Of a stretch of 64,000 nucleotides of DNA, positions 8,137 through 22,310 are shown piece after piece. Both the position numbers and the translations under genes were made by a program. The first letter of the stretch is position 1. Each line of letters opens with the position of its first letter. A model generated the notes under the pieces. That model had not been told where the DNA came from. It did not search any database and saw nothing but the letters and a program-made list of their open reading frames with translations. The DNA is from Niabella soli DSM 19437 (lineage in GTDB: Bacteria > Bacteroidota > Bacteroidia > Chitinophagales > Chitinophagaceae): the NCBI RefSeq assembly GCF_000243115.2, contig NZ_CP007035.1, positions 496,001 through 560,000 of the forward strand, written 5' to 3'.

Positions 8137-11049
8137 CTACACTTCCATATAGGCCTCGGTTGGCTCACAGGTACAGATCAGGTTGCGGTCTCCCAATGTA
8201 TTGTTTACCCTTGCCACAGACGGCCAGAATTTGTTATGTGCTATATAGGGCAGAGGAAAGGCGGCTTCTTCCCTGGTATAACGATGCTCCCATGCGCTGG
8301 TAATTACCGATTGTTGCGTATGAGGTGCATTTTTTAACGGGTTGTCTTTCCCATCCCATGTAGCGGTTTCTATTTTCTGAATTTCCTTACGGATGCTTTG
8401 TAAGGCATCGCAAAAACGATCCAGTTCACCTTTGTCTTCACTTTCCGTTGGTTCGATCATGATCGTTCCCGGAACGGGGAAGCTCATGGTGGGGGCGTGG
8501 AACCCATAATCCATCAGCCTTTTGGCGATGTCTTCCGCTTCCACCTGCGCGGTCTTTTTAAACGGACGAAGGTCTACAATAAATTCATGCGCGCATAAAT
8601 TATTGCTGTTGGTGTACAGGATATCAAAATCTTCTTCCAGGCGTGCCCGCATATAATTGGCGTTAAGGATGGCATATTGTGTGGCTGCCTTTAACCCTTC
8701 GGCGCCCAGCATGCGTATATAAGCGTAGGAGATCAGGAGAATAGATGCCGATCCATAAGGGGCTGCTGATACGGCCCCTTCGTGATTTTGATGATTCCCG
8801 GTTCCGTTACCGTTGATCGATATTGTTTTTGCTTTATGCAGGAAAACGTGGCCGGGCAAATGTTGGGCCAGATGCTCTTTCACGCAAATGGGTCCCATGC
8901 CGGGACCGCCGCCGCCGTGCGGGATAGCAAAGGTCTTGTGCAGGTTCAGGTGACAAACATCGGCGCCAATCAACCCGGGTGCAGTAAGTCCTACCTGCGC
9001 GTTCATATTGGCGCCGTCCATGTATACCTGGCCGCCATTGTCGTGGATGATCTGGTTGATCTCTTTTACCGTTTCCTCGTAAATTCCGTATGTGCTCGGG
9101 TAGGTGATCATAATGCCGGCCAGTACATCTTTATATTGTGCTGCCTTTGCTTTCAGATCCTCCATATCAATGTATCCATTCTCCAGAGCTTTCACCACAA
9201 CCACTTTCATGCCCGCCATTACCGCAGAAGCCGGATTGGTACCATGCGCTGAGATGGGGATCAGCATCACATTACGTTGGGGGTTTCCCTGGGCTTCATG
9301 ATAGGCTTTGATCGTAAGTAAGCCCGCATATTCTCCCTGTGCACCGCTGTTGGGTTGCAGGCTGCAGGCATCAAACGCCGTGATGGCGCACAGATATTGG
9401 CTGAGCTCTTCAACGATTTGTTTATAGCCGCCTGCCTGGTTTACCGGGGCAAAGGGATGAATATTCGCCCAATGCGCCCAGCTCAGCGGGATCATTTCCG
9501 TGGCGGCATTCAGCTTCATCGTACAGCTCCCCAAAGAGATCATGGAAGTGTTCAGAGAGAGATCCTTATTCTCCAGGTATTTGATGTAGCGCATCATCTT
9601 GCTTTCGCTATGATAGGTATTAAACACCTGTTGGGTAAGAAATGCAGATTGGCGCACCAGTGATTCAGGGATATGACGCAATTCCTCTTCCGTACTTAAC
9701 TCAAATGAAACGGGATTCACATCATTTTCAAAACAATTGATCAGGTCATAAAGGTCTTCAACGATCACGGTTTCATCAAGGGAAACGCCAATATGCTGAT
9801 GATCGATCTGCCGCAGGTTTATTTTTTGTTGCGCTGCTTTTCCAATAATCCCGGCGGCATTGTTTGTTTTGATAACAAGGGTATCAAAATAATGATCGCT
9901 CACCAGCTCAAACCCACGCGCTTCAATAGCTTCCCCTACGATCTGGGTGAAAACTGCAATCCGTTCTGCAATTTTTTTCAGTCCATCGGGCCCGTGATAC
10001 ACGGCATACATTGCGGCCATATTAGCAAGCAATGCCTGCGCTGTGCAAATATTTGAAGTGGCTTTTTCCCGTTTGATATGTTGCTCCCGGGTCTGCAAGG
10101 CCATGCGGAGCGCGCGGTTCCCGTTGGCGTCTTCACTGATGCCGATGATCCGGCCCGGTATGGTGCGTTTGAATTCATCGGTAGCCGTCATGAAGGCGGC
10201 ATGAGGACCGCCATAACCCAAAGGTACCCCAAAACGTTGCGCAGATCCGATCGCCACATCGGCGCCCAGTTCACCCGGAGGGGTTAAAATGGCTAAAGCC
10301 AGCAGGTCGGTTGCCATGGCTACATAGGCTTCGTTGCGGTGTACGGTTTCAATAAAAGAACGGTAGTCTTCAATACTTCCCTTGTTATTAGGGTACTGTA
10401 TCAGTGCGCCAAAGTATTCTTTGGTGATGCCGGCTGTTTTATAGTCGCCTTCCACCAGTTCAATCCCGAAGGGCTTTGCGCGGGTGTACAGAACGTCTTT
10501 TGTTTGGGGGAAGAGCTCAGCGTCAATAAAAAATCTGGGCTTTTCCGCAACGGTGGCCTTGTTCTTTGAATGGTAAAACATGATCATGGCTTCTGCGGCG
10601 GCCGTTGCTTCATCCAGTAAGGAGGCATTGGCCAAAGGCAGACTCGTAAGGTCGCAGATCACCGTCTGGAAATTCAGCAGGCTTTCCAGGCGTCCCTGGG
10701 ATATTTCGGCCTGGTAAGGCGTATATTGGGTATACCAACCCGGATTTTCAAAAATATTGCGCAGGATGACTGACGGCGTAAGGGTGCCGTAATACCCCTG
10801 ACCGATATAATTATGAAAAATTTTATTTTTGAGCGATACATTTTTGATATGGCGGAGGTATTCGTTCTCGCTCATAGGTTTGGGAATATCAAGGGCTTCC
10901 GCCATGCGGATCGCCGATGGAACGGTTTGCTCCATTAAGGCGTCCAGGTTGTTGAACCCCACTTTATCCAGCATTTTTCCGGTTTCGGTTGCATCGGGCC
11001 CAATATGCCGTTGTAAAAATTCTTTTGATTGCGCTTCTAAAATATTCAT
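8137..11049 (-). CDS. gcvP: Glycine dehydrogenase (decarboxylating), P-protein
   Basis: A full-length fused P-protein of 970 residues. It is the PLP-dependent component of the glycine cleavage system that decarboxylates glycine and passes the aminomethyl group to lipoylated H-protein. The start RHIGPDATETGKMLDKVGF and the N-terminal half (PYQAEISQGRLESLLNFQ, LLDEATAAAEAM) are characteristic. The PLP lysine is Lys705 in LHKTFAIPHGGGGPG. The closing PVARVNNTLGDRNLICTCEP is also typical. gcvH and gcvT are not adjacent, as is usual in Bacteroidota. A -7 element (TAACTTTG on the minus strand, 11085-11092) precedes it and a strong terminator follows. Confidence 0.98.
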   Translation of the reverse strand: MNILEAQSKEFLQRHIGPDATETGKMLDKVGFNNLDALMEQTVPSAIRMAEALDIPKPMSENEYLRHIKNVSLKNKIFHNYIGQGYYGTLTPSVILRNIFENPGWYTQYTPYQAEISQGRLESLLNFQTVICDLTSLPLANASLLDEATAAAEAMIMFYHSKNKATVAEKPRFFIDAELFPQTKDVLYTRAKPFGIELVEGDYKTAGITKEYFGALIQYPNNKGSIEDYRSFIETVHRNEAYVAMATDLLALAILTPPGELGADVAIGSAQRFGVPLGYGGPHAAFMTATDEFKRTIPGRIIGISEDANGNRALRMALQTREQHIKREKATSNICTAQALLANMAAMYAVYHGPDGLKKIAERIAVFTQIVGEAIEARGFELVSDHYFDTLVIKTNNAAGIIGKAAQQKINLRQIDHQHIGVSLDETVIVEDLYDLINCFENDVNPVSFELSTEEELRHIPESLVRQSAFLTQQVFNTYHSESKMMRYIKYLENKDLSLNTSMISLGSCTMKLNAATEMIPLSWAHWANIHPFAPVNQAGGYKQIVEELSQYLCAITAFDACSLQPNSGAQGEYAGLLTIKAYHEAQGNPQRNVMLIPISAHGTNPASAVMAGMKVVVVKALENGYIDMEDLKAKAAQYKDVLAGIMITYPSTYGIYEETVKEINQIIHDNGGQVYMDGANMNAQVGLTAPGLIGADVCHLNLHKTFAIPHGGGGPGMGPICVKEHLAQHLPGHVFLHKAKTISINGNGTGNHQNHEGAVSAAPYGSASILLISYAYIRMLGAEGLKAATQYAILNANYMRARLEEDFDILYTNSNNLCAHEFIVDLRPFKKTAQVEAEDIAKRLMDYGFHAPTMSFPVPGTIMIEPTESEDKGELDRFCDALQSIRKEIQKIETATWDGKDNPLKNAPHTQQSVITSAWEHRYTREEAAFPLPYIAHNKFWPSVARVNNTLGDRNLICTCEPTEAYMEV

Positions 11050-16463: not shown

Positions 16464-17621
16464 GTGAGTACTATCCAGAATAATCTTACTGTTTTTTTCC
16501 CTGGCAAGCTCGTTTTTGCAAACGGATGCATGGAACAATTGCCTGATGAAATAAAAGCGTTGCAGCCGGCAAAAGTGTTTATTGTTACTATAAAACCGCT
16601 GGAGCCTGCCGTCAGCCGCCTGAAGACCCAATTAAACAAAAACGGGATCGGGGTACAGACCGATACCACAATTGTACAGGAGCCTTCTTTTAGTGATTTT
16701 GAACAACTGATGGTGCAGGTGAGCGCTTTTGATCCGGACCTGGTGATCGGTATTGGGGGCGGTAGTGTGCTGGATGTGGCAAAACTGGCGGCAGCACAGT
16801 TGGGGAACGAACAACAATTAAGTGATTATGTAGGTATTGGTTTACTGAAGGGAAGAGAACGGAAACTGATATGTGTGCCCGCTACTTCCGGCACGGGTAG
16901 CGAAGCTTCACCTAATGCCATATTGGTAGATGGCGCCGGTCAGAAAAAAGGGATCATTAGCCCGTACCTGGTGCCCGATATTGTATATGTGGATCCCCTG
17001 CTTACAATATCGGTGCCACCGGCGATAACCGCAGCAACCGGTATTGATGCATTGACGCATTGTATGGAAGCCTATACCAACAAATTTGCCCAGCCTTTTA
17101 TTGATATGATGGCGTTTGAAGGAATGCGCCTGATAGCCCAGTATATTGAAACCGCGGTAAAAGACGGAAGTAATGCGGAAGCGCGGGAAAAAGTGGCCAT
17201 GGGGAGCCTGCTGGGCGGGATCTGCCTTGGACCGGTGAACACAGCAGGGGTACATGCCTTATCTTATCCTTTGGGTAGCTTGTTTCACCTGGCACATGGT
17301 TTGTCCAATGCTTTATTGCTGCCCTATATAATGGAATATAATATTCCCGCAGCCACGAAGAAATACGCGGAAGTGGCCATAGCGCTTGGATGTGAGCGGC
17401 AAAGTACGGATGCAGCCACCGCGGCCCGGGGCGTAAAAAAAATACGGGAGTTGATCAGTGCCTGCGGTATCCCTCAAACATTAAAGGAAGTAAACGTGCC
17501 CGAAGAAGCTATTGCCGGGATGGCGGCGGATGCTATGAAAGTACAACGGTTGCTGAAGAATAACCCGAGAGAAATAACAGAACAGGACGCTATTGCTATT
17601 TACAAAGCGGCAATGGGCTGA
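16464..17621 (+). CDS. Iron-containing alcohol dehydrogenase
   Basis: A 385-residue group III (Fe-type) dehydrogenase, NAD(P)-dependent. The NAD-binding loop is IGIGGGSVLDVAKLAA (about 95-110) and PATSGTGSEASPNAI follows. Metal ligands are in GIDALTHCMEAYTNK (Asp and His) and in HALSYPLGSLFHLAHGLSNALLLPYIMEYN (two His). The start is GTG at 16464, giving STIQNNLTVFFPGKLVFANG, which fits the family. It begins a plus-strand operon with an aldolase-type DHDPS protein, PdxA, DUF1537 kinase and a symporter. It may oxidise or reduce a hydroxy acid or aldehyde intermediate; exact substrate unknown. Confidence 0.93.
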   Translation: MSTIQNNLTVFFPGKLVFANGCMEQLPDEIKALQPAKVFIVTIKPLEPAVSRLKTQLNKNGIGVQTDTTIVQEPSFSDFEQLMVQVSAFDPDLVIGIGGGSVLDVAKLAAAQLGNEQQLSDYVGIGLLKGRERKLICVPATSGTGSEASPNAILVDGAGQKKGIISPYLVPDIVYVDPLLTISVPPAITAATGIDALTHCMEAYTNKFAQPFIDMMAFEGMRLIAQYIETAVKDGSNAEAREKVAMGSLLGGICLGPVNTAGVHALSYPLGSLFHLAHGLSNALLLPYIMEYNIPAATKKYAEVAIALGCERQSTDAATAARGVKKIRELISACGIPQTLKEVNVPEEAIAGMAADAMKVQRLLKNNPREITEQDAIAIYKAAMG

Positions 17622-17650
17622 TTCATTAAGAATTATATCCTTTAAGTAAG

Positions 17651-18559
17651 ATGAAACTGGATAAAACCAAAAAAAAAATAATAATACCGGCGGTCACGCC
17701 ACTTACCCCTTCTTATCAAATAGATAGTACAGCGGTGGAAAAGATCCTCGCTTATTTTTATGCACACGATGCAGTCCCCTTTATTCTGGGCACCACAGGT
17801 GAGGCGCCTTCGCTGCCGTTGCAGCAAAAAAGGGATTATGTAGCCGCTGCCTCCAAATATAAAAAAACAGTTACCGCATTGTATGCGGGTATATCGTCAA
17901 ATATTATTGATGAGTCTGTCGAATTGGCCAAATTTTGTGCGGATCATGGGGTAGATGCCGTAGCGGCCACTTTGCCTGCTTATTATAGGCTTACCGAAGA
18001 CCAAATGAAGCGGTATTTTGAGCAGTTGGCAGACGCTATACCACTGCCCCTGATCATTTATAATATACCGGCTACCACCCATATGAGTATACCGCTGCCC
18101 GTTATTGATGCCTTAAGCCATCATCCCAACATCATTGCTACTAAAGATTCTGAACGTAGCGATGAGCGGCTACAGGAATCTTTACAGTTGTGGAAGAACC
18201 GCGATGATTTTGCGCATTACCTGGGCTGGGCTGCCCGGTCGGCTGCTGCATTAACAGGAGGAAGCGATGGATTGATACCAAGCACAGGGAATATTTTCCC
18301 GGGGATTTATCAAAAAATGGTTCAGGCAATTGAAGCCGGCGATGAGGCGCTTGTTTACGCAATGCAGCAGCATAGTGATACTGGCGGGGCGCTTTACCAG
18401 TCGGGCAGAACATTGGGGGAAAGTCTGTGGGCGCTGAAGGTGCTGATGCACGAAAAAGGGCTGTGCCAGCCGGTAGTGATGCCGCCATTGCTGCCACAGG
18501 ATGAAAACCAGGCGAAGGAATTAAAAGAAACGTTGAGCAAAATACCATTTACAGAATGA
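17651..18559 (+). CDS. Dihydrodipicolinate synthase family (DapA/NanA-type) aldolase or lyase
   Basis: A 302-residue TIM-barrel class I aldolase. GTTGE (47-51) is the carboxylate-binding motif, Tyr137 lies in LIIYNIPATT, and the Schiff-base Lys165 lies in ATKDS. The family makes or breaks C-C bonds next to pyruvate or dehydrates sugar acids. Because it is embedded between an Fe-dehydrogenase and PdxA/DUF1537 genes, a catabolic role on an acid-sugar intermediate is more likely than lysine biosynthesis. It starts 29 nt after the dehydrogenase gene and its stop overlaps the pdxA start by 4 nt (ATGA). Confidence 0.93.
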   Translation: MKLDKTKKKIIIPAVTPLTPSYQIDSTAVEKILAYFYAHDAVPFILGTTGEAPSLPLQQKRDYVAAASKYKKTVTALYAGISSNIIDESVELAKFCADHGVDAVAATLPAYYRLTEDQMKRYFEQLADAIPLPLIIYNIPATTHMSIPLPVIDALSHHPNIIATKDSERSDERLQESLQLWKNRDDFAHYLGWAARSAAALTGGSDGLIPSTGNIFPGIYQKMVQAIEAGDEALVYAMQQHSDTGGALYQSGRTLGESLWALKVLMHEKGLCQPVVMPPLLPQDENQAKELKETLSKIPFTE

Positions 18560-19590
18560 CGCATTTACCCATAATAGCCATTACCATGGGCGATCCGGCG
18601 AGTATCGGACCGGAGATAGCCGTGAAAGCTTTAAAAGATAAAAAAATATATGAAATATGCCGGCCATTGATTGCCGGCGATGCCCGTGTATTTGAAAAGA
18701 TCATCAGTGAGCTGGGCCTTGGGGTTACCATAAACCGGATACAGGAGCCAGCAGAAGCAGCATTTAAATATGGGGCCATTGATGTAATAGACCTTGCGAA
18801 TGTGGATATTTCAAAATTAGCCTATGGAAAGATCGACGCTCTATGCGGCGAAGCAAGTTTCCGTTCGGTCGAAAAGGTGATTCAGTTGGCCCTTGCGGGA
18901 ACCGTTAATGCTACCGTAACGGGACCGATTAATAAAAAATCGATCAACGATGCAGGGCATCATTTTGCAGGACATACCGAGATCTATGCAGAGCTTACAG
19001 GTACAAAAAAATATGCCATGCTCCTGGTAGAAGATAAGATCAATGTGATCCATGTAAGCACGCACGTCTCTTTACGCCAGGCCTGCGACCTGGTAAAAAA
19101 AGACCGGATACTGGAAGTGATTGCGTTACTGCGTAACGGGCTCATAAGCCTGGGTAAAACCAATCTGAAGATCGGGGTTGCCGGCCTCAATCCTCATGCA
19201 GGAGATAATGGATTATTTGGTACGGAAGAAGCGTTGGAGATTTTGCCCGCTATAGAAGCCGCACGCAGCCAGGGCTACGACGTGGAAGGCCCGGTTCCGC
19301 CGGATACCCTGTTTGCTAAAGCTGCCACGGGCGCTTACGGCGGCGTGGTGGCCATGTATCACGACCAGGGGCACATACCTTTTAAACTGGCAGGTTTTAA
19401 ATGGAATGCCGAAAAACAGCAAATGGAAAGTGTTAAAGGCGTAAATATTACCATGGGACTTCCGATTATACGGACTTCGGTTGACCACGGCACGGCTTTT
19501 GAAATTGCCGGTAAAGGCATCGCCAGTCCTGATGCGATGGTATTAGCTATTGAGAGCGCGGTGCAGTTAAGTAATAATAAAAAAGTTTGA
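18556..19590 (+). CDS. PdxA-family 4-phospho-(hydroxy)acid dehydrogenase
   Basis: A 344-residue NAD-dependent, metal-dependent oxidative decarboxylase of the PdxA family. Visible are TMGDPASIGPEI at the start and metal-binding His in FAGHTE, LNPHAGD and MYHDQGH. GLPIIRTSVDHGTAFEIAGKG lies near the end. Classical PdxA acts in vitamin B6 synthesis. The PdxA2 branch, encoded beside DUF1537 kinases, oxidises 4-phospho-D-threonate or -erythronate to DHAP and CO2. The overlap with its neighbours on both sides (ATGA upstream, TGATG downstream) favours the PdxA2-type catabolic role here. Assignment to one or the other is an inference from context. Confidence 0.92.
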   Translation: MTHLPIIAITMGDPASIGPEIAVKALKDKKIYEICRPLIAGDARVFEKIISELGLGVTINRIQEPAEAAFKYGAIDVIDLANVDISKLAYGKIDALCGEASFRSVEKVIQLALAGTVNATVTGPINKKSINDAGHHFAGHTEIYAELTGTKKYAMLLVEDKINVIHVSTHVSLRQACDLVKKDRILEVIALLRNGLISLGKTNLKIGVAGLNPHAGDNGLFGTEEALEILPAIEAARSQGYDVEGPVPPDTLFAKAATGAYGGVVAMYHDQGHIPFKLAGFKWNAEKQQMESVKGVNITMGLPIIRTSVDHGTAFEIAGKGIASPDAMVLAIESAVQLSNNKKV

Positions 19591-20711
19591 TGATTTTAGT
19601 AATAGCGGATGATTTTACGGGTGCGGCGGAAATGGCAGGGATCTGCCTCGGGTATGGCCTGAGGGTTATGATTTGTACGGAGGATTGGATACCGGCAGAC
19701 ACCGATGTATTAATTATTTCGACAGACAGCAGGTCGATGGATAGAACGGCGGCGTTGGAACGGGTAAGCCAGGTAACACGCGAAGCCGTTAAAATGCAGC
19801 CGGGTTGTGTATATAAAAAAATCGATTCCGTATTGCGGGGATTTGTGGCGGATGAGTTGTTGGTGCAATTGGAGCTATTGGGGCTGCATAAAGCTGTGAT
19901 TGCCCCCGCTAATCCTTCCCTGGGGCGCATTATAAGCGGGGGGAAATATTTTATAAATGGAATTGAAATCGCAGCGAGTGATTTTGCCAAAGATCCCGAG
20001 TTTGCAATAGGGTCGTCGGATGTAAAAGAGATGCTCGGGGGAGCAAAAATCAATCTCCTGCAAAAAGGAAGCCCTGTAGTAGAGGGATTAAATATTGCGG
20101 AATCAGAAACGGTTGCCGATGCCGGATATTGGGCGTCACAAGTGGACCGGGATTGTTTGCCCGCCGGTTCGGGAGATTTTTTTGATGCCTTGTTGCAGCG
20201 CAAGTATATAAAAGTGAACCAGCAGAACCAGCCAGCCCTGCATACACCACATTTGTATGTGAGCGGAACTTCGTTCACTGTCAGTAAAAACAGGATCCGG
20301 GAACAGGGCGGTGCCTGTGTTGCCTATATTGCTGCCGGATTGATCACCGGTGCTTTGCCGGATGAAGACTGGCTTACTAAAGCAGGTATTGTTTTACAGC
20401 AATATCAAAGACTGATTATCGCCTTCGATGATTCAATAGATACCCGCAATTTTGACGCAGTAGTATTGCGGAATAAAATGGCGGAATATGTAAAAGCAGT
20501 CGTGGATCGGTTCGGGATTCAGGAGCTGCTGATTGAAGGAGGCGCGACTGCCGCCGCTGTTTTCCAGGCACTGGGCGCCCGCTGTTTTGAGCCGCTGTAT
20601 GAATGGGAGCGTGGAATTGTACAAATGAAAACAGGCCACCTTACCTGTATCGTAAAGCCCGGAAGTTATGAGTTGCCTCCTGTTGTAAAAGAGTTGTATG
20701 GAATGCTGTAA
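19590..20711 (+). CDS. Four-carbon acid sugar kinase (DUF1537 family)
   Basis: A 373-residue kinase of the OtnK/DtnK/LtnK family, which phosphorylates C4 acid sugars such as threonate, erythronate or their 3-keto forms with ATP. The N-terminal substrate domain shows IADDFTGAAEMAG (5-17) and KKIDSVLRG (about 79-87). The C-terminal nucleotide domain has LIEGGATAAAVFQALGA. I use ATG 19590, which overlaps the pdxA stop by one base; a TTG just before it is also open. Length is slightly below the ~420 common in proteobacteria. With PdxA2-type dehydrogenase next door, it likely supplies the phosphorylated substrate. Confidence 0.93.
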   Translation: MILVIADDFTGAAEMAGICLGYGLRVMICTEDWIPADTDVLIISTDSRSMDRTAALERVSQVTREAVKMQPGCVYKKIDSVLRGFVADELLVQLELLGLHKAVIAPANPSLGRIISGGKYFINGIEIAASDFAKDPEFAIGSSDVKEMLGGAKINLLQKGSPVVEGLNIAESETVADAGYWASQVDRDCLPAGSGDFFDALLQRKYIKVNQQNQPALHTPHLYVSGTSFTVSKNRIREQGGACVAYIAAGLITGALPDEDWLTKAGIVLQQYQRLIIAFDDSIDTRNFDAVVLRNKMAEYVKAVVDRFGIQELLIEGGATAAAVFQALGARCFEPLYEWERGIVQMKTGHLTCIVKPGSYELPPVVKELYGML

Positions 20712-20756
20712 CGGCGCCGCAACAGGTCCTTCTTATTAGTAATCAAAAATAGTATA

Positions 20757-22310
20757 ATGGCGCGCTTGCATTTTATTGATTTTGCCATAATTGTTCTGGT
20801 TTTAGGTGTGACGGTATTTCTGGGATTCCGGTTTTCCAGGAAACAAAATTCAACACAGAACTTTTTTTTATCAAAAGGAAATATTCCCTCCTGGGCACTG
20901 GGCTTGTCCCTGCTGGCAACCCTTATCAGCAGCGTTACGTTTTTGGGTTACCCGGCCCAGGGGTATACGGGCAACTGGATCCTGTTGGTACAGGGGTTAA
21001 TGGTACCTGTGGTCTTACTGGGTTGTATATGGTTTATTGTACCCCTGTTCAGGAAGTCGATTGGATTAAGCACTTATGAGTATTTTGAGAAACGATTTGG
21101 AAGTTTTGCGCGCTATTACAGCTCTTTATCTTTTGTAGTGCGGCAGTTTGCGGGAATGGGAACCGTATTGTTTTTAATTGCCGTTGCCATCAGGGAAATG
21201 ATACATGTTAATCCCTTTATGGTGCTGGCGGTGGTAGCATTGCTCCTGATCATCGTTAACCTTAAGGGAGGCATACAGGCCGTTATCTGGCTGGATGTAT
21301 TTCAGGGCTTCATGCTGTTCTTTAGCGGTATTGTTTGCCTGGTAGTATTGTTAAATTCCATAAAGGGCGGTGTTCCGGAGGCAATCAGGATCGCAACGGA
21401 AAATCAGCGTGCCGGCTTTGGTCCTTATGATTTCAGTTTTAAGCACCTGACGTTTATTGTTATGGTCGTGAACGGCGCCTTTTATGCCGTTCAGAAATAT
21501 GCGACCGATCAAACGGTAGTGCAGCGGTATTTAACGGCAAAATCCGACAGGGATGCGATCAGGGCATCCTTTCTTGGTATATCACTTACCGTTCCTATAT
21601 GGACGCTTTTCATGCTTATTGGTACTGCGCTCTTTGTTTATTATAAACAACAGGGAGCGCCGGAAGGAATGAAAGCTGAAGGAATATTCCCGCATTTTAT
21701 TATGACGCAGTTGCCACCGGGCATTATTGGTTTTATTATTGCTGCGCTTTTATCTGCCGCGATCTGTAGTTTAAGCGCCGACCTGAACTCGCTGGCGGCC
21801 GTAGGGGTGGAGGATTATTATAAAAAGATAGTACCGGGTAAGGGAGATCAACATTACCTGCAGGTAAGTAAATTATTGGTGATGTGCTCCGGCCTTCTGG
21901 CCGCCGGTATCGGCGCCTTATACATACTATCGGGCGATGAGGGAGTGCTCGGGATTATTTTTACGGTATACGCTATTTTTTCAGGAGGTATTGTGGGGGT
22001 CTTTTTATTGGGCTTGTTCAGCTCCCGGGCCAACAGGCAGGGCGTTAACATCGCTATTGTGGTATGCATTATTTTTACAGCTTATGCCTTTCTTACTTCC
22101 ACACCGGTAGGGCTTAAAAACCCAAAGCTGCTTCTTGACCTGGGACCGTTTAATTTTACACATAACAAACTTATGCTGGGGGTCTACAGCCACCTGGTAG
22201 TGATTATCGTAGGGTATATTGCCAGCTTGTTTTTCCCAAAGCCCGCTATTGAGCCCAATCTTTTGTATTCCAATTGGAAGAAGAACCGGAAAACGGTGAA
22301 TCGGGTATAA
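20757..22310 (+). CDS. Sodium:solute symporter (SSS family)
   Basis: A 517-residue inner-membrane transporter with about 13 hydrophobic segments. Family features include the N-terminal FRFSRKQNSTQNFFLSKGNIPSWALGLSLLATLISSVTFLG (the Na+-binding first helix after the loop) and DQTVVQRYLTAKSDRDA. AALLSAAICSLSADLNSLAAV with its sodium-site serines is also typical. It ends the acid-sugar operon after a 45-nt gap and is the obvious candidate for uptake of the substrate with sodium. Substrate identity is inferred only from the neighbours. Confidence 0.93.
   Translation: MARLHFIDFAIIVLVLGVTVFLGFRFSRKQNSTQNFFLSKGNIPSWALGLSLLATLISSVTFLGYPAQGYTGNWILLVQGLMVPVVLLGCIWFIVPLFRKSIGLSTYEYFEKRFGSFARYYSSLSFVVRQFAGMGTVLFLIAVAIREMIHVNPFMVLAVVALLLIIVNLKGGIQAVIWLDVFQGFMLFFSGIVCLVVLLNSIKGGVPEAIRIATENQRAGFGPYDFSFKHLTFIVMVVNGAFYAVQKYATDQTVVQRYLTAKSDRDAIRASFLGISLTVPIWTLFMLIGTALFVYYKQQGAPEGMKAEGIFPHFIMTQLPPGIIGFIIAALLSAAICSLSADLNSLAAVGVEDYYKKIVPGKGDQHYLQVSKLLVMCSGLLAAGIGALYILSGDEGVLGIIFTVYAIFSGGIVGVFLLGLFSSRANRQGVNIAIVVCIIFTAYAFLTSTPVGLKNPKLLLDLGPFNFTHNKLMLGVYSHLVVIIVGYIASLFFPKPAIEPNLLYSNWKKNRKTVNRV

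Follow-up and report, generated by a model that had tools for sequence, protein, structure and literature searches.

A conserved five-gene operon of Niabella soli that probably encodes a catabolic route for the pectin sugar acid Dha, with D-threonate as an intermediate

Why should a kinase and a PdxA-type dehydrogenase of the kind that acts on four-carbon acid sugars be encoded together with a class I aldolase, an iron-containing alcohol dehydrogenase (Fe-ADH, or ADH) and a sodium symporter? The question is raised by a stretch of 64,000 nucleotides from Niabella soli DSM 19437 (C1:496001-560000, where C1 is the single contig, NZ_CP007035.1, of the 4.70 Mb genome; the whole stretch is referred to here as the window), in which an earlier note had described a five-gene operon with the kinase and dehydrogenase genes coupled to the aldolase gene by 1-4 nt overlaps, had taken a four-carbon acid sugar to be its substrate and had found the role of the aldolase and the Fe-ADH 'not obvious'. 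All five open reading frames (ORFs) do lie on the same strand and the overlaps are exact (Table 1), and all five proteins have Pfam matches above the cut-off, those to Fe-ADH and SSF bearing out the presence of an alcohol dehydrogenase and a sodium symporter in the set. We put the probability that this operon is a complete catabolic route for 3-deoxy-D-lyxo-heptulosaric acid (Dha), a rare acid sugar with seven carbons that occurs in pectin, with D-threonate as an intermediate, at roughly three in four. A four-carbon acid would thus keep its place in the route, but probably as an intermediate, the imported substrate probably being Dha, and the roles of the aldolase and Fe-ADH would be explained if the substrate were this C7 acid.

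The route, in which we infer every catalytic step as well as the identity of the substrate, would begin with a GH143 enzyme, encoded elsewhere in the genome, that would release Dha from the pectic polysaccharide rhamnogalacturonan II (RG-II). The sodium solute symporter (SSS) would import Dha with Na+, and the aldolase, via a Schiff base on Lys165, would cleave it between C3 and C4 to give pyruvate and the C4 uronate 2,3-dihydroxy-4-oxobutanoate. The Fe-ADH would reduce the aldehyde of the latter with NADH to give D-threonate, the direction and substrate of this enzyme being our assignment, the DUF1537 kinase would turn D-threonate into D-threonate 4-phosphate, and the PdxA paralogue would oxidise C3 of that compound with NAD+, with CO2 being lost, to yield dihydroxyacetone phosphate (DHAP). 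The net reaction, Dha + ATP -> pyruvate + DHAP + CO2 + ADP, would be redox-neutral, the NADH spent by the ADH being regenerated in the PdxA step. Stereochemistry was followed by hand in Fischer projection. In Dha, a D-lyxo C7 ulosarate, C4, C5 and C6 are left, left and right, cleavage between C3 and C4 leaves CHO(C4)-C5(left)-C6(right)-COOH and, once the CHO has been reduced, the product read from the carboxylate has C2 left and C3 right, which is D-threonate, the kind of compound on which such a kinase/PdxA pair is known to act.

A scan for relatives of the aldolase, using one genome per species, found 99, and the best 80 of these, all from Bacteroidota by title, were taken. The complete order ADH-DHDPS-PdxA-kinase-SSS was observed in 64 of the 80 loci, with median gaps along the ordered set of 3, -4, -1 and 23 nt. 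Because the complete order recurs so often and with such tight gaps, conservation of the operon is far beyond chance and, hence, the set is one functional unit, the aldolase, ADH and symporter included. Among the 16 incomplete loci, ten are truncated at contig ends or frame-split, as judged by lengths and frames, an SSS gene adjoining the kinase gene was not seen in L034, L069, L098 or L103, a kinase ORF was not found in L091, and L070 has only the aldolase and symporter genes. A search based on kinase similarity found relatives in nine of 59 genomes, including that of N. soli, and the same order is kept in the eight loci read from it, several of which have split frames.

In another genome of the genus (G004), a transposase pair with integrase-core and transposase HTH domains (Pfam) lies between pdxA and the kinase gene (L019:8184-9385). 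Three Niabella genomes (L020/L059, L021/L035 and L022/L092) have some of the operon genes in two frames, due to either sequencing error or decay, and the aldolase matches in G214, G641 and G649 each contain one internal TAA. In G020, the operon is directly preceded on its strand by FGGY kinase and ABC transporter genes (L023:12128-15900).

The kinase/PdxA arm likely ends in DHAP. That the pair is of the four-carbon acid sugar kind, as previously proposed, is upheld by a tree of 18 sequences in which the window PdxA falls among PdxA2 proteins, separated from both the canonical PdxA of the same genome and E. coli PdxA (branch support 97/99); the two canonical rows and L118 are on long branches, and L110 and L121 were left out. 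The best PDB matches, 2hi1, 4jqp and 6e85, scored 280-284 bits while the next, 1ps7, scored 184, and 6e85 is titled D-threonate 4-phosphate dehydrogenase. The earlier note had recognised that the proposal would fail if this pdxA served vitamin B6 synthesis. Its neighbours would then be incidental. The protein does pass the broad PdxA model TIGR00557 (340.5 versus 290.35), but the genome has another pdxA, a canonical one at C1:3131546, which makes a B6 role unlikely, and conservation of the operon across loci also argues against it. With the tree placement added, this explanation was rejected as scarcely credible.

The kinase belongs to the DUF1537 family by both domain and fold. It matches SBD_N with 108.3 bits (cut-off 25) and, marginally, NBD_C with 28.4 bits (cut-off 28.3). 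The AlphaFold2 model (pLDDT 93), which like the kinase alignment was based on the window sequence and 28 of the 74 kinase ORFs from the 80 loci, matched eight PDB chains at E <= 0.001, namely six chains titled DUF1537, which gave the best folds, and two chains (3dqq) titled putative tRNA synthase.

When aligned with NanA and YagE, the aldolase was found to include the Schiff-base lysine, the catalytic tyrosine and the pyruvate-binding threonine loop of the class I pyruvate aldolases, and Tyr137, Lys165 and the GTTGE loop are invariant in all 30 aligned sequences (that of the window plus those of 29 of the 80 loci, also used for the model), which together with the Pfam match supports the earlier assignment to a class I DHDPS-type enzyme. 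A fold search with the AlphaFold2 model (pLDDT 94) returned sialate lyases as the 18 best PDB chains, though these represent few distinct proteins with many mutants. The aldolase is a pyruvate-type class I enzyme and, judging from sequence and model, appears to be near both the sialate lyases and DHDPS. Two named functions were tried and rejected, lysine-biosynthesis DapA (TIGR00674 score 147.8, below the cut-off of 206.15) and N-acetylneuraminate lyase NanA (TIGR00683 score 86.2, below the cut-off of 382). Where NanA has Asp-Glu-Ile, presumably its residues 191-193, the window aldolase has Ala194-Ala195-Arg196 in a sequence alignment, a difference that is no more than suggestive with regard to contacts for the second carboxylate of Dha. 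The closest solved relative of the symporter is 5nv9 (245.9 bits; next 132.1), which we take to be the sialic acid transporter SiaT. One substrate, a C7 2-keto-3-deoxy aldarate, fits an aldolase of the pyruvate type, an importer resembling 5nv9 and an arm of the D-threonate type together.

In plants, 3-deoxy-D-manno-oct-2-ulosonic acid (Kdo) and Dha have been reported solely from RG-II (PMC12168206), and Dha is located in RG-II chain D, where it is capped by beta-1,5-Araf (PMC12282258). Dha had been proposed, and GH143 chosen to test the proposal, before GH143 was searched for, although the flanks were by then known to contain rhamnosidase and BNR genes. PMC6811678 describes GH143 as a bi-modular Bacteroides thetaiotaomicron enzyme in which a five-fold propeller holds the Dha-hydrolase site and a further site is that of an arabinofuranosidase, and in BT_1020 (5mqr) the arabinofuranosidase site is near residues such as Glu694 (PMC7263609). 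Taking these two accounts together, the N-terminal half of BT_1020 presumably corresponds to the Dha hydrolase, and it is equated here with GH143. A gene cluster found in the flanks of nine of the 80 loci encodes a protein of this type; the full-length member tested matches only residues 23-610 of BT_1020 (5mqr, E 1e-225) and contains the Pfam domain Beta-prop_BT_1020, the N-terminal propeller of BT_1020.

In a sample of 298 genomes from the order, in which the aldolase and the GH143-like protein were each called at E <= 1e-60, the aldolase was found in nine genomes and a GH143-domain gene in 21, and all nine aldolase carriers, N. soli included, were among the 21 (hypergeometric probability 6.5e-12, kinship ignored). 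The two genes are no more than 26 kb apart in six of the nine, but not in G000, G020 and G214. A wider scan covered 50 genomes, which belong to a subset of the 80 operon loci hand-picked toward longer contigs, with L096, L100 and L102 left out and with three genomes that repeat the order sample, and a GH143-domain gene was present in all 50, though the close copy is split into pieces in G638 and has one internal stop in G628. Both genes were on one contig in 44 genomes (median distance 15.5 kb), within 60 kb in 42 and within 20 kb in 25. A sample of 315 genomes from the class contained two aldolase and 11 GH143 carriers and serves as background only, because the two aldolase carriers (G000 and G020) repeat the order sample.

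The wider surroundings are also of the RG-II type. In the flanks of the 80 loci, a merged GH78/BNR_2 cluster (two families joined via fused proteins, with a few doubtful ORFs) was found in 50, an esterase-like protein in 42, GH2 in 33, a second DHDPS-family protein in 23, a second SSS in 19 and, in 16, a protein of the GH141 type that has a rhaM domain. The N. soli genome has an RG-II-type locus at approximately 4.42-4.51 Mb with GH143, GH95, GH28, GH78, BNR_2 and GH141-type genes, and with a second gene each for an SSS and a DHDPS-family protein. The operon is very likely linked to RG-II use, and two other sugars of this polysaccharide have to be considered as its substrate. Aceric acid is the strongest rival within RG-II. 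The ADH would reduce its aldehyde, the kinase would phosphorylate the new primary alcohol, PdxA would oxidise the beta-hydroxyl, CO2 being lost, and the 5-deoxyketopentose 1-phosphate so formed would be split by the aldolase to DHAP and acetaldehyde. The gene context suits this scheme and, from the structure of aceric acid, we reason that its reduced, phosphorylated form would be an alpha-substituted tetronate 4-phosphate and a plausible PdxA substrate. However, the scheme needs a DHAP-type reaction by a pyruvate-type aldolase. Pyruvate is the nucleophile in the DHDPS/NAL family, the GTTGE loop that holds its carboxylate is invariant in the 30 sequences, and we know of no DHAP aldolase in this family. 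The 5nv9-like symporter and the sialidase-fold neighbours found in other phyla would also be left unexplained, and we regard aceric acid as quite unlikely.

Kdo, the eight-carbon acid of side chain C, is found alongside Dha in RG-II (PMC12282258, PMC12168206) and might suit an aldolase whose modelled fold is near the sialate lyases. Its cleavage would, however, produce D-arabinose, which makes no sense for a tetronate kinase and PdxA, and a better candidate for its catabolism is the second DHDPS-family gene, second SSS gene and GH78/BNR_2 genes in the RG-II-type locus of the window genome. On these two grounds Kdo was rejected as a very improbable substrate. At C1:4480231-4491815 (L127), GH78, BNR_2 sialidase-fold, second SSS, FMN-dependent dehydrogenase, esterase-like and second DHDPS-family genes are found together, and this stretch is a candidate for the module that handles Kdo from side chain C (Rha-Kdo).

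Two further groups of genes were noted in the same region. At C1:4504145-4506742 (L016/L128), approximately 40 kb from the GH143-domain gene, a gene for a RuBisCO-like protein lies beside one for a full-length DUF1537 kinase; the best NCBIfam matches of the pair are OiaX and OiaK, both below the cut-off, and its sequences would point to apiose-type metabolism. A split transketolase, ABC transporter genes and an FGGY kinase are near the GH143-domain gene at C1:4466622-4474302 (L126) and presumably resemble the D-apiose (apulose 4-phosphate) route, while NCBIfam puts the FGGY kinase with GlpK.

Fourteen plasmid stretches from outside Bacteroidota (L109-L122) were also examined. They were chosen, non-randomly, among the best matches and across the range of a PdxA2 search. 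An Fe-ADH was present in 10, a DHDPS-family protein in eight, a BNR_2-like protein in eight and all three in six, those of Subdoligranulum, Enterococcus raffinosus, Pantoea stewartii, P. ananatis, Rhizobium leguminosarum and Aminobacter. A DUF1537 kinase was detected in 10 of the 14, but not within L113, L114, L117 and L120. Pantoea vagans (L109) and Niallia (L121) have the ADH, aldolase and kinase without a sialidase-fold gene, and the kinase encoded next to the other two in P. vagans scores 520.4 with the curated D-threonate kinase model NF047819, above the cut-off of 450, whereas the Enterococcus kinase, at 220.3, is below it. Klebsiella pneumoniae L136, chosen via a search with the Pantoea aldolase, also has the set, with the ADH as a 256-aa ORF only and the sialidase-fold gene as two ORFs (L136:6219-6986, 9375-10540); this record is labelled a plasmid but, at 5.37 Mb, is probably a chromosome. 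YhcH-family genes are found in L111, L113 and L114, and in four of the seven sets made up of the six stretches and Klebsiella. E. coli NanQ, annotated as an N-acetylneuraminate anomerase, is presumably akin to YhcH.

Similar ADH/aldolase/PdxA2 sets are therefore found in Bacillota and Pseudomonadota. The suggestion in the earlier note that the operon may define a variant pathway stands, as the set does look like an undescribed route, though the substrate given there was probably incomplete. The set is not peculiar to the window genome. The aldolases of L109, L111 and L117 share only 24-29 % identity with the window aldolase, and thus the association is either old or of repeated origin. These sets also bear on the alternative that a free four-carbon acid (threonate, erythronate) is imported and oxidised while the ADH and aldolase take part in an unrelated side reaction. 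L115 and L118, which have the kinase and PdxA2 beside a transporter gene and neither ADH nor aldolase, fit this alternative. However, the operon joins the ADH and aldolase closely to the kinase/PdxA pair, with median gaps of 3 and -4 nt, the ADH/aldolase/PdxA2 set recurs with aldolases as divergent as those above, and the presence of GH143 in every carrier examined is not predicted by it, making plain uptake of a C4 acid unlikely.

Several observations weigh against Dha catabolism as the function of the operon. The window PdxA scored only 327.1 bits with the curated D-threonate model NF002891 and, because the cut-off of 583 was missed, it is termed PdxA2-like and not assigned to that equivalog. 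The kinase, with 127.1, is also below the cut-off of 450 for the curated D-threonate kinase (DtnK) model NF047819, and has EGGATA in the position of GGDT, leaving it without the acidic residue of this motif, while three solved DUF1537 members have GGD or GGE. GG[AS]T is found in 71 of the 74 kinase ORFs of the 80 loci (the motif was not found in three), two short rhizobial kinases (L116 and L122) also have GGAT, and Glu317, directly before the GG, is invariant in the 29 aligned kinases. The DHDPS and YagE folds trail the sialate lyases by less than tenfold in E-value, with similar TM-scores, and by sequence the closest solved relative of the aldolase is 4xky, an annotated DHDPS (112.6 bits), with the sialate lyases at approximately 80. 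The window operon is far from the GH143-domain gene (513,651 versus 4,462,964, or about 750 kb if the contig is circular), as are those of G020 and G214. The operon is accompanied by GH143 in all the cases examined, but the converse does not hold. All 20 GH143-positive, operon-negative genomes have a single PdxA, 33-39 % identical to that of the window, and a DUF1537 protein is above the cut-off in five of them; hence, GH143 does not require the operon. As the families of RG-II hydrolases strongly co-occur (PMC7922503), the link to GH143 does not allow Dha to be told apart from the other sugars of RG-II. Among the plasmid stretches, a DUF1537 kinase was not found in four of the six with ADH, aldolase and sialidase-fold genes, being either absent or missed, the aldolase is missing from L116 and L122 although ADH, kinase and sialidase-fold genes are present there, and the stretches of Natronococcus, Caballeronia, Salmonella and Haladaptatus have no ADH, aldolase or sialidase-fold gene.

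The features discussed are listed in Table 1. The kinase start in the ORF list is a TTG, giving 374 aa, and an ATG is found three bases downstream. The remaining intergenic gaps are 29 and 45 nt, and there is no regulator gene inside the five-gene operon. A scan for promoters and terminators gave 22 and 16 consensus sites, compared to shuffle means of 14.2 and 9.3, which is not decisive. A gene for a Pr6Pr-family membrane protein (window:22373-22981) follows the symporter gene after 62 nt on the same strand, and among the compared loci a relative was seen only in L017/L025, from one genome.

Table 1. Coordinates of the operon genes and overlaps (window positions) and of the GH143-domain gene (contig positions)
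Feature	Position	Strand	Details
Iron-containing alcohol dehydrogenase (Fe-ADH)	16464..17621	+	385 aa, GTG start; Pfam Fe-ADH/ADH_Fe_C
DHDPS/NAL-family class I aldolase	17651..18559	+	302 aa; Pfam DHDPS
PdxA2-like 4-phosphotetronate dehydrogenase (predicted)	18556..19590	+	344 aa; Pfam PdxA
DUF1537 four-carbon acid sugar kinase, short form	19587 or 19590..20711	+	Pfam SBD_N, NBD_C
SSS-family Na+ symporter	20757..22310	+	517 aa; Pfam SSF
ATGA overlap, aldolase stop/PdxA start	18556..18559	+	4 nt; from the sequence
TGATG overlap, PdxA/kinase	19588-19592	+	1 nt if the ATG start at 19590 is used
GH143-domain gene of the window genome	C1:4462928-4464793		

Parts of the proposed route are familiar from other systems. 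The D-threonate pathway (DtnK and PdxA2), which together with the DUF1537 family was reportedly described by Zhang et al. in 2016, shares the kinase and the PdxA-type dehydrogenase that convert a tetronate to DHAP and CO2, PdxA2 catalysing the second step. In contrast to that pathway, the operon adds an aldolase and an ADH, the tetronate would arise intracellularly from a C7 acid, and the kinase is short (374 aa) and without GGDT. The D-threonate kinase is named DtnK in PMC10971088. With the catabolism of N-acetylneuraminate (Neu5Ac) in E. coli (NanT, NanA and NanQ), the operon would share transport of a 2-keto-3-deoxy acid and its retro-aldol cleavage by a DHDPS-fold lyase to pyruvate and an aldehyde, and some relatives of the operon have sialidase-fold and YhcH-family partners, as Neu5Ac systems do. 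However, it does not include the ManNAc kinase/epimerase arm and has the ADH, tetronate kinase and PdxA instead. The decarboxylase of the erythronate/L-threonate pathway (OtnK, OtnC and LtnD) belongs to the class II aldolase family. Represented by ygbJKLM in E. coli and also found in Brucella (PMC10580937), this pathway has the DUF1537 kinase in common with the operon, but its dehydrogenase acts before the kinase, its decarboxylase acts after it, and it does not include a PdxA.

The operon is also tied to a known system by its neighbours, as the GH143, GH95, GH78, GH28 and GH141-type genes found near it in relatives, or in the window genome, belong to families that B. thetaiotaomicron applies to RG-II, the locus for which was reportedly described by Ndeh et al. 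in 2017. This locus is covered in PMC7939467 and PMC12282258, which both deal with polysaccharide hydrolysis, and the intracellular fate of Dha was not found in the parts of these two papers that were available. Neither Dha catabolism nor this gene set was found in the titles and abstract openings of the open-access PMC literature, among the matches listed, which does not establish absence from print. The five-gene set does look undescribed as a route.

Few plant polysaccharides are as complex as RG-II, and for B. thetaiotaomicron the enzymes that take it apart are known in detail. If the proposal is correct, the operon would be a five-gene answer to the fate of the Dha that is released, with matching carbon, redox and stereochemical bookkeeping. 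We lean towards the broader view that it represents an undescribed, general 'ulosarate' pathway, used for Dha as an analogue of sialic acid by bacteria from three or more phyla that live in soil or with plants. In it, a class I pyruvate aldolase would be coupled to a D-threonate arm made up of the ADH, DUF1537 kinase and PdxA2, and D-threonate would be an intermediate of pectin breakdown and not a free nutrient. This would provide a natural origin for D-threonate and would give a functional name to PdxA, DHDPS, Fe-ADH and 'exo-alpha-sialidase' genes that have so far been annotated by family only.

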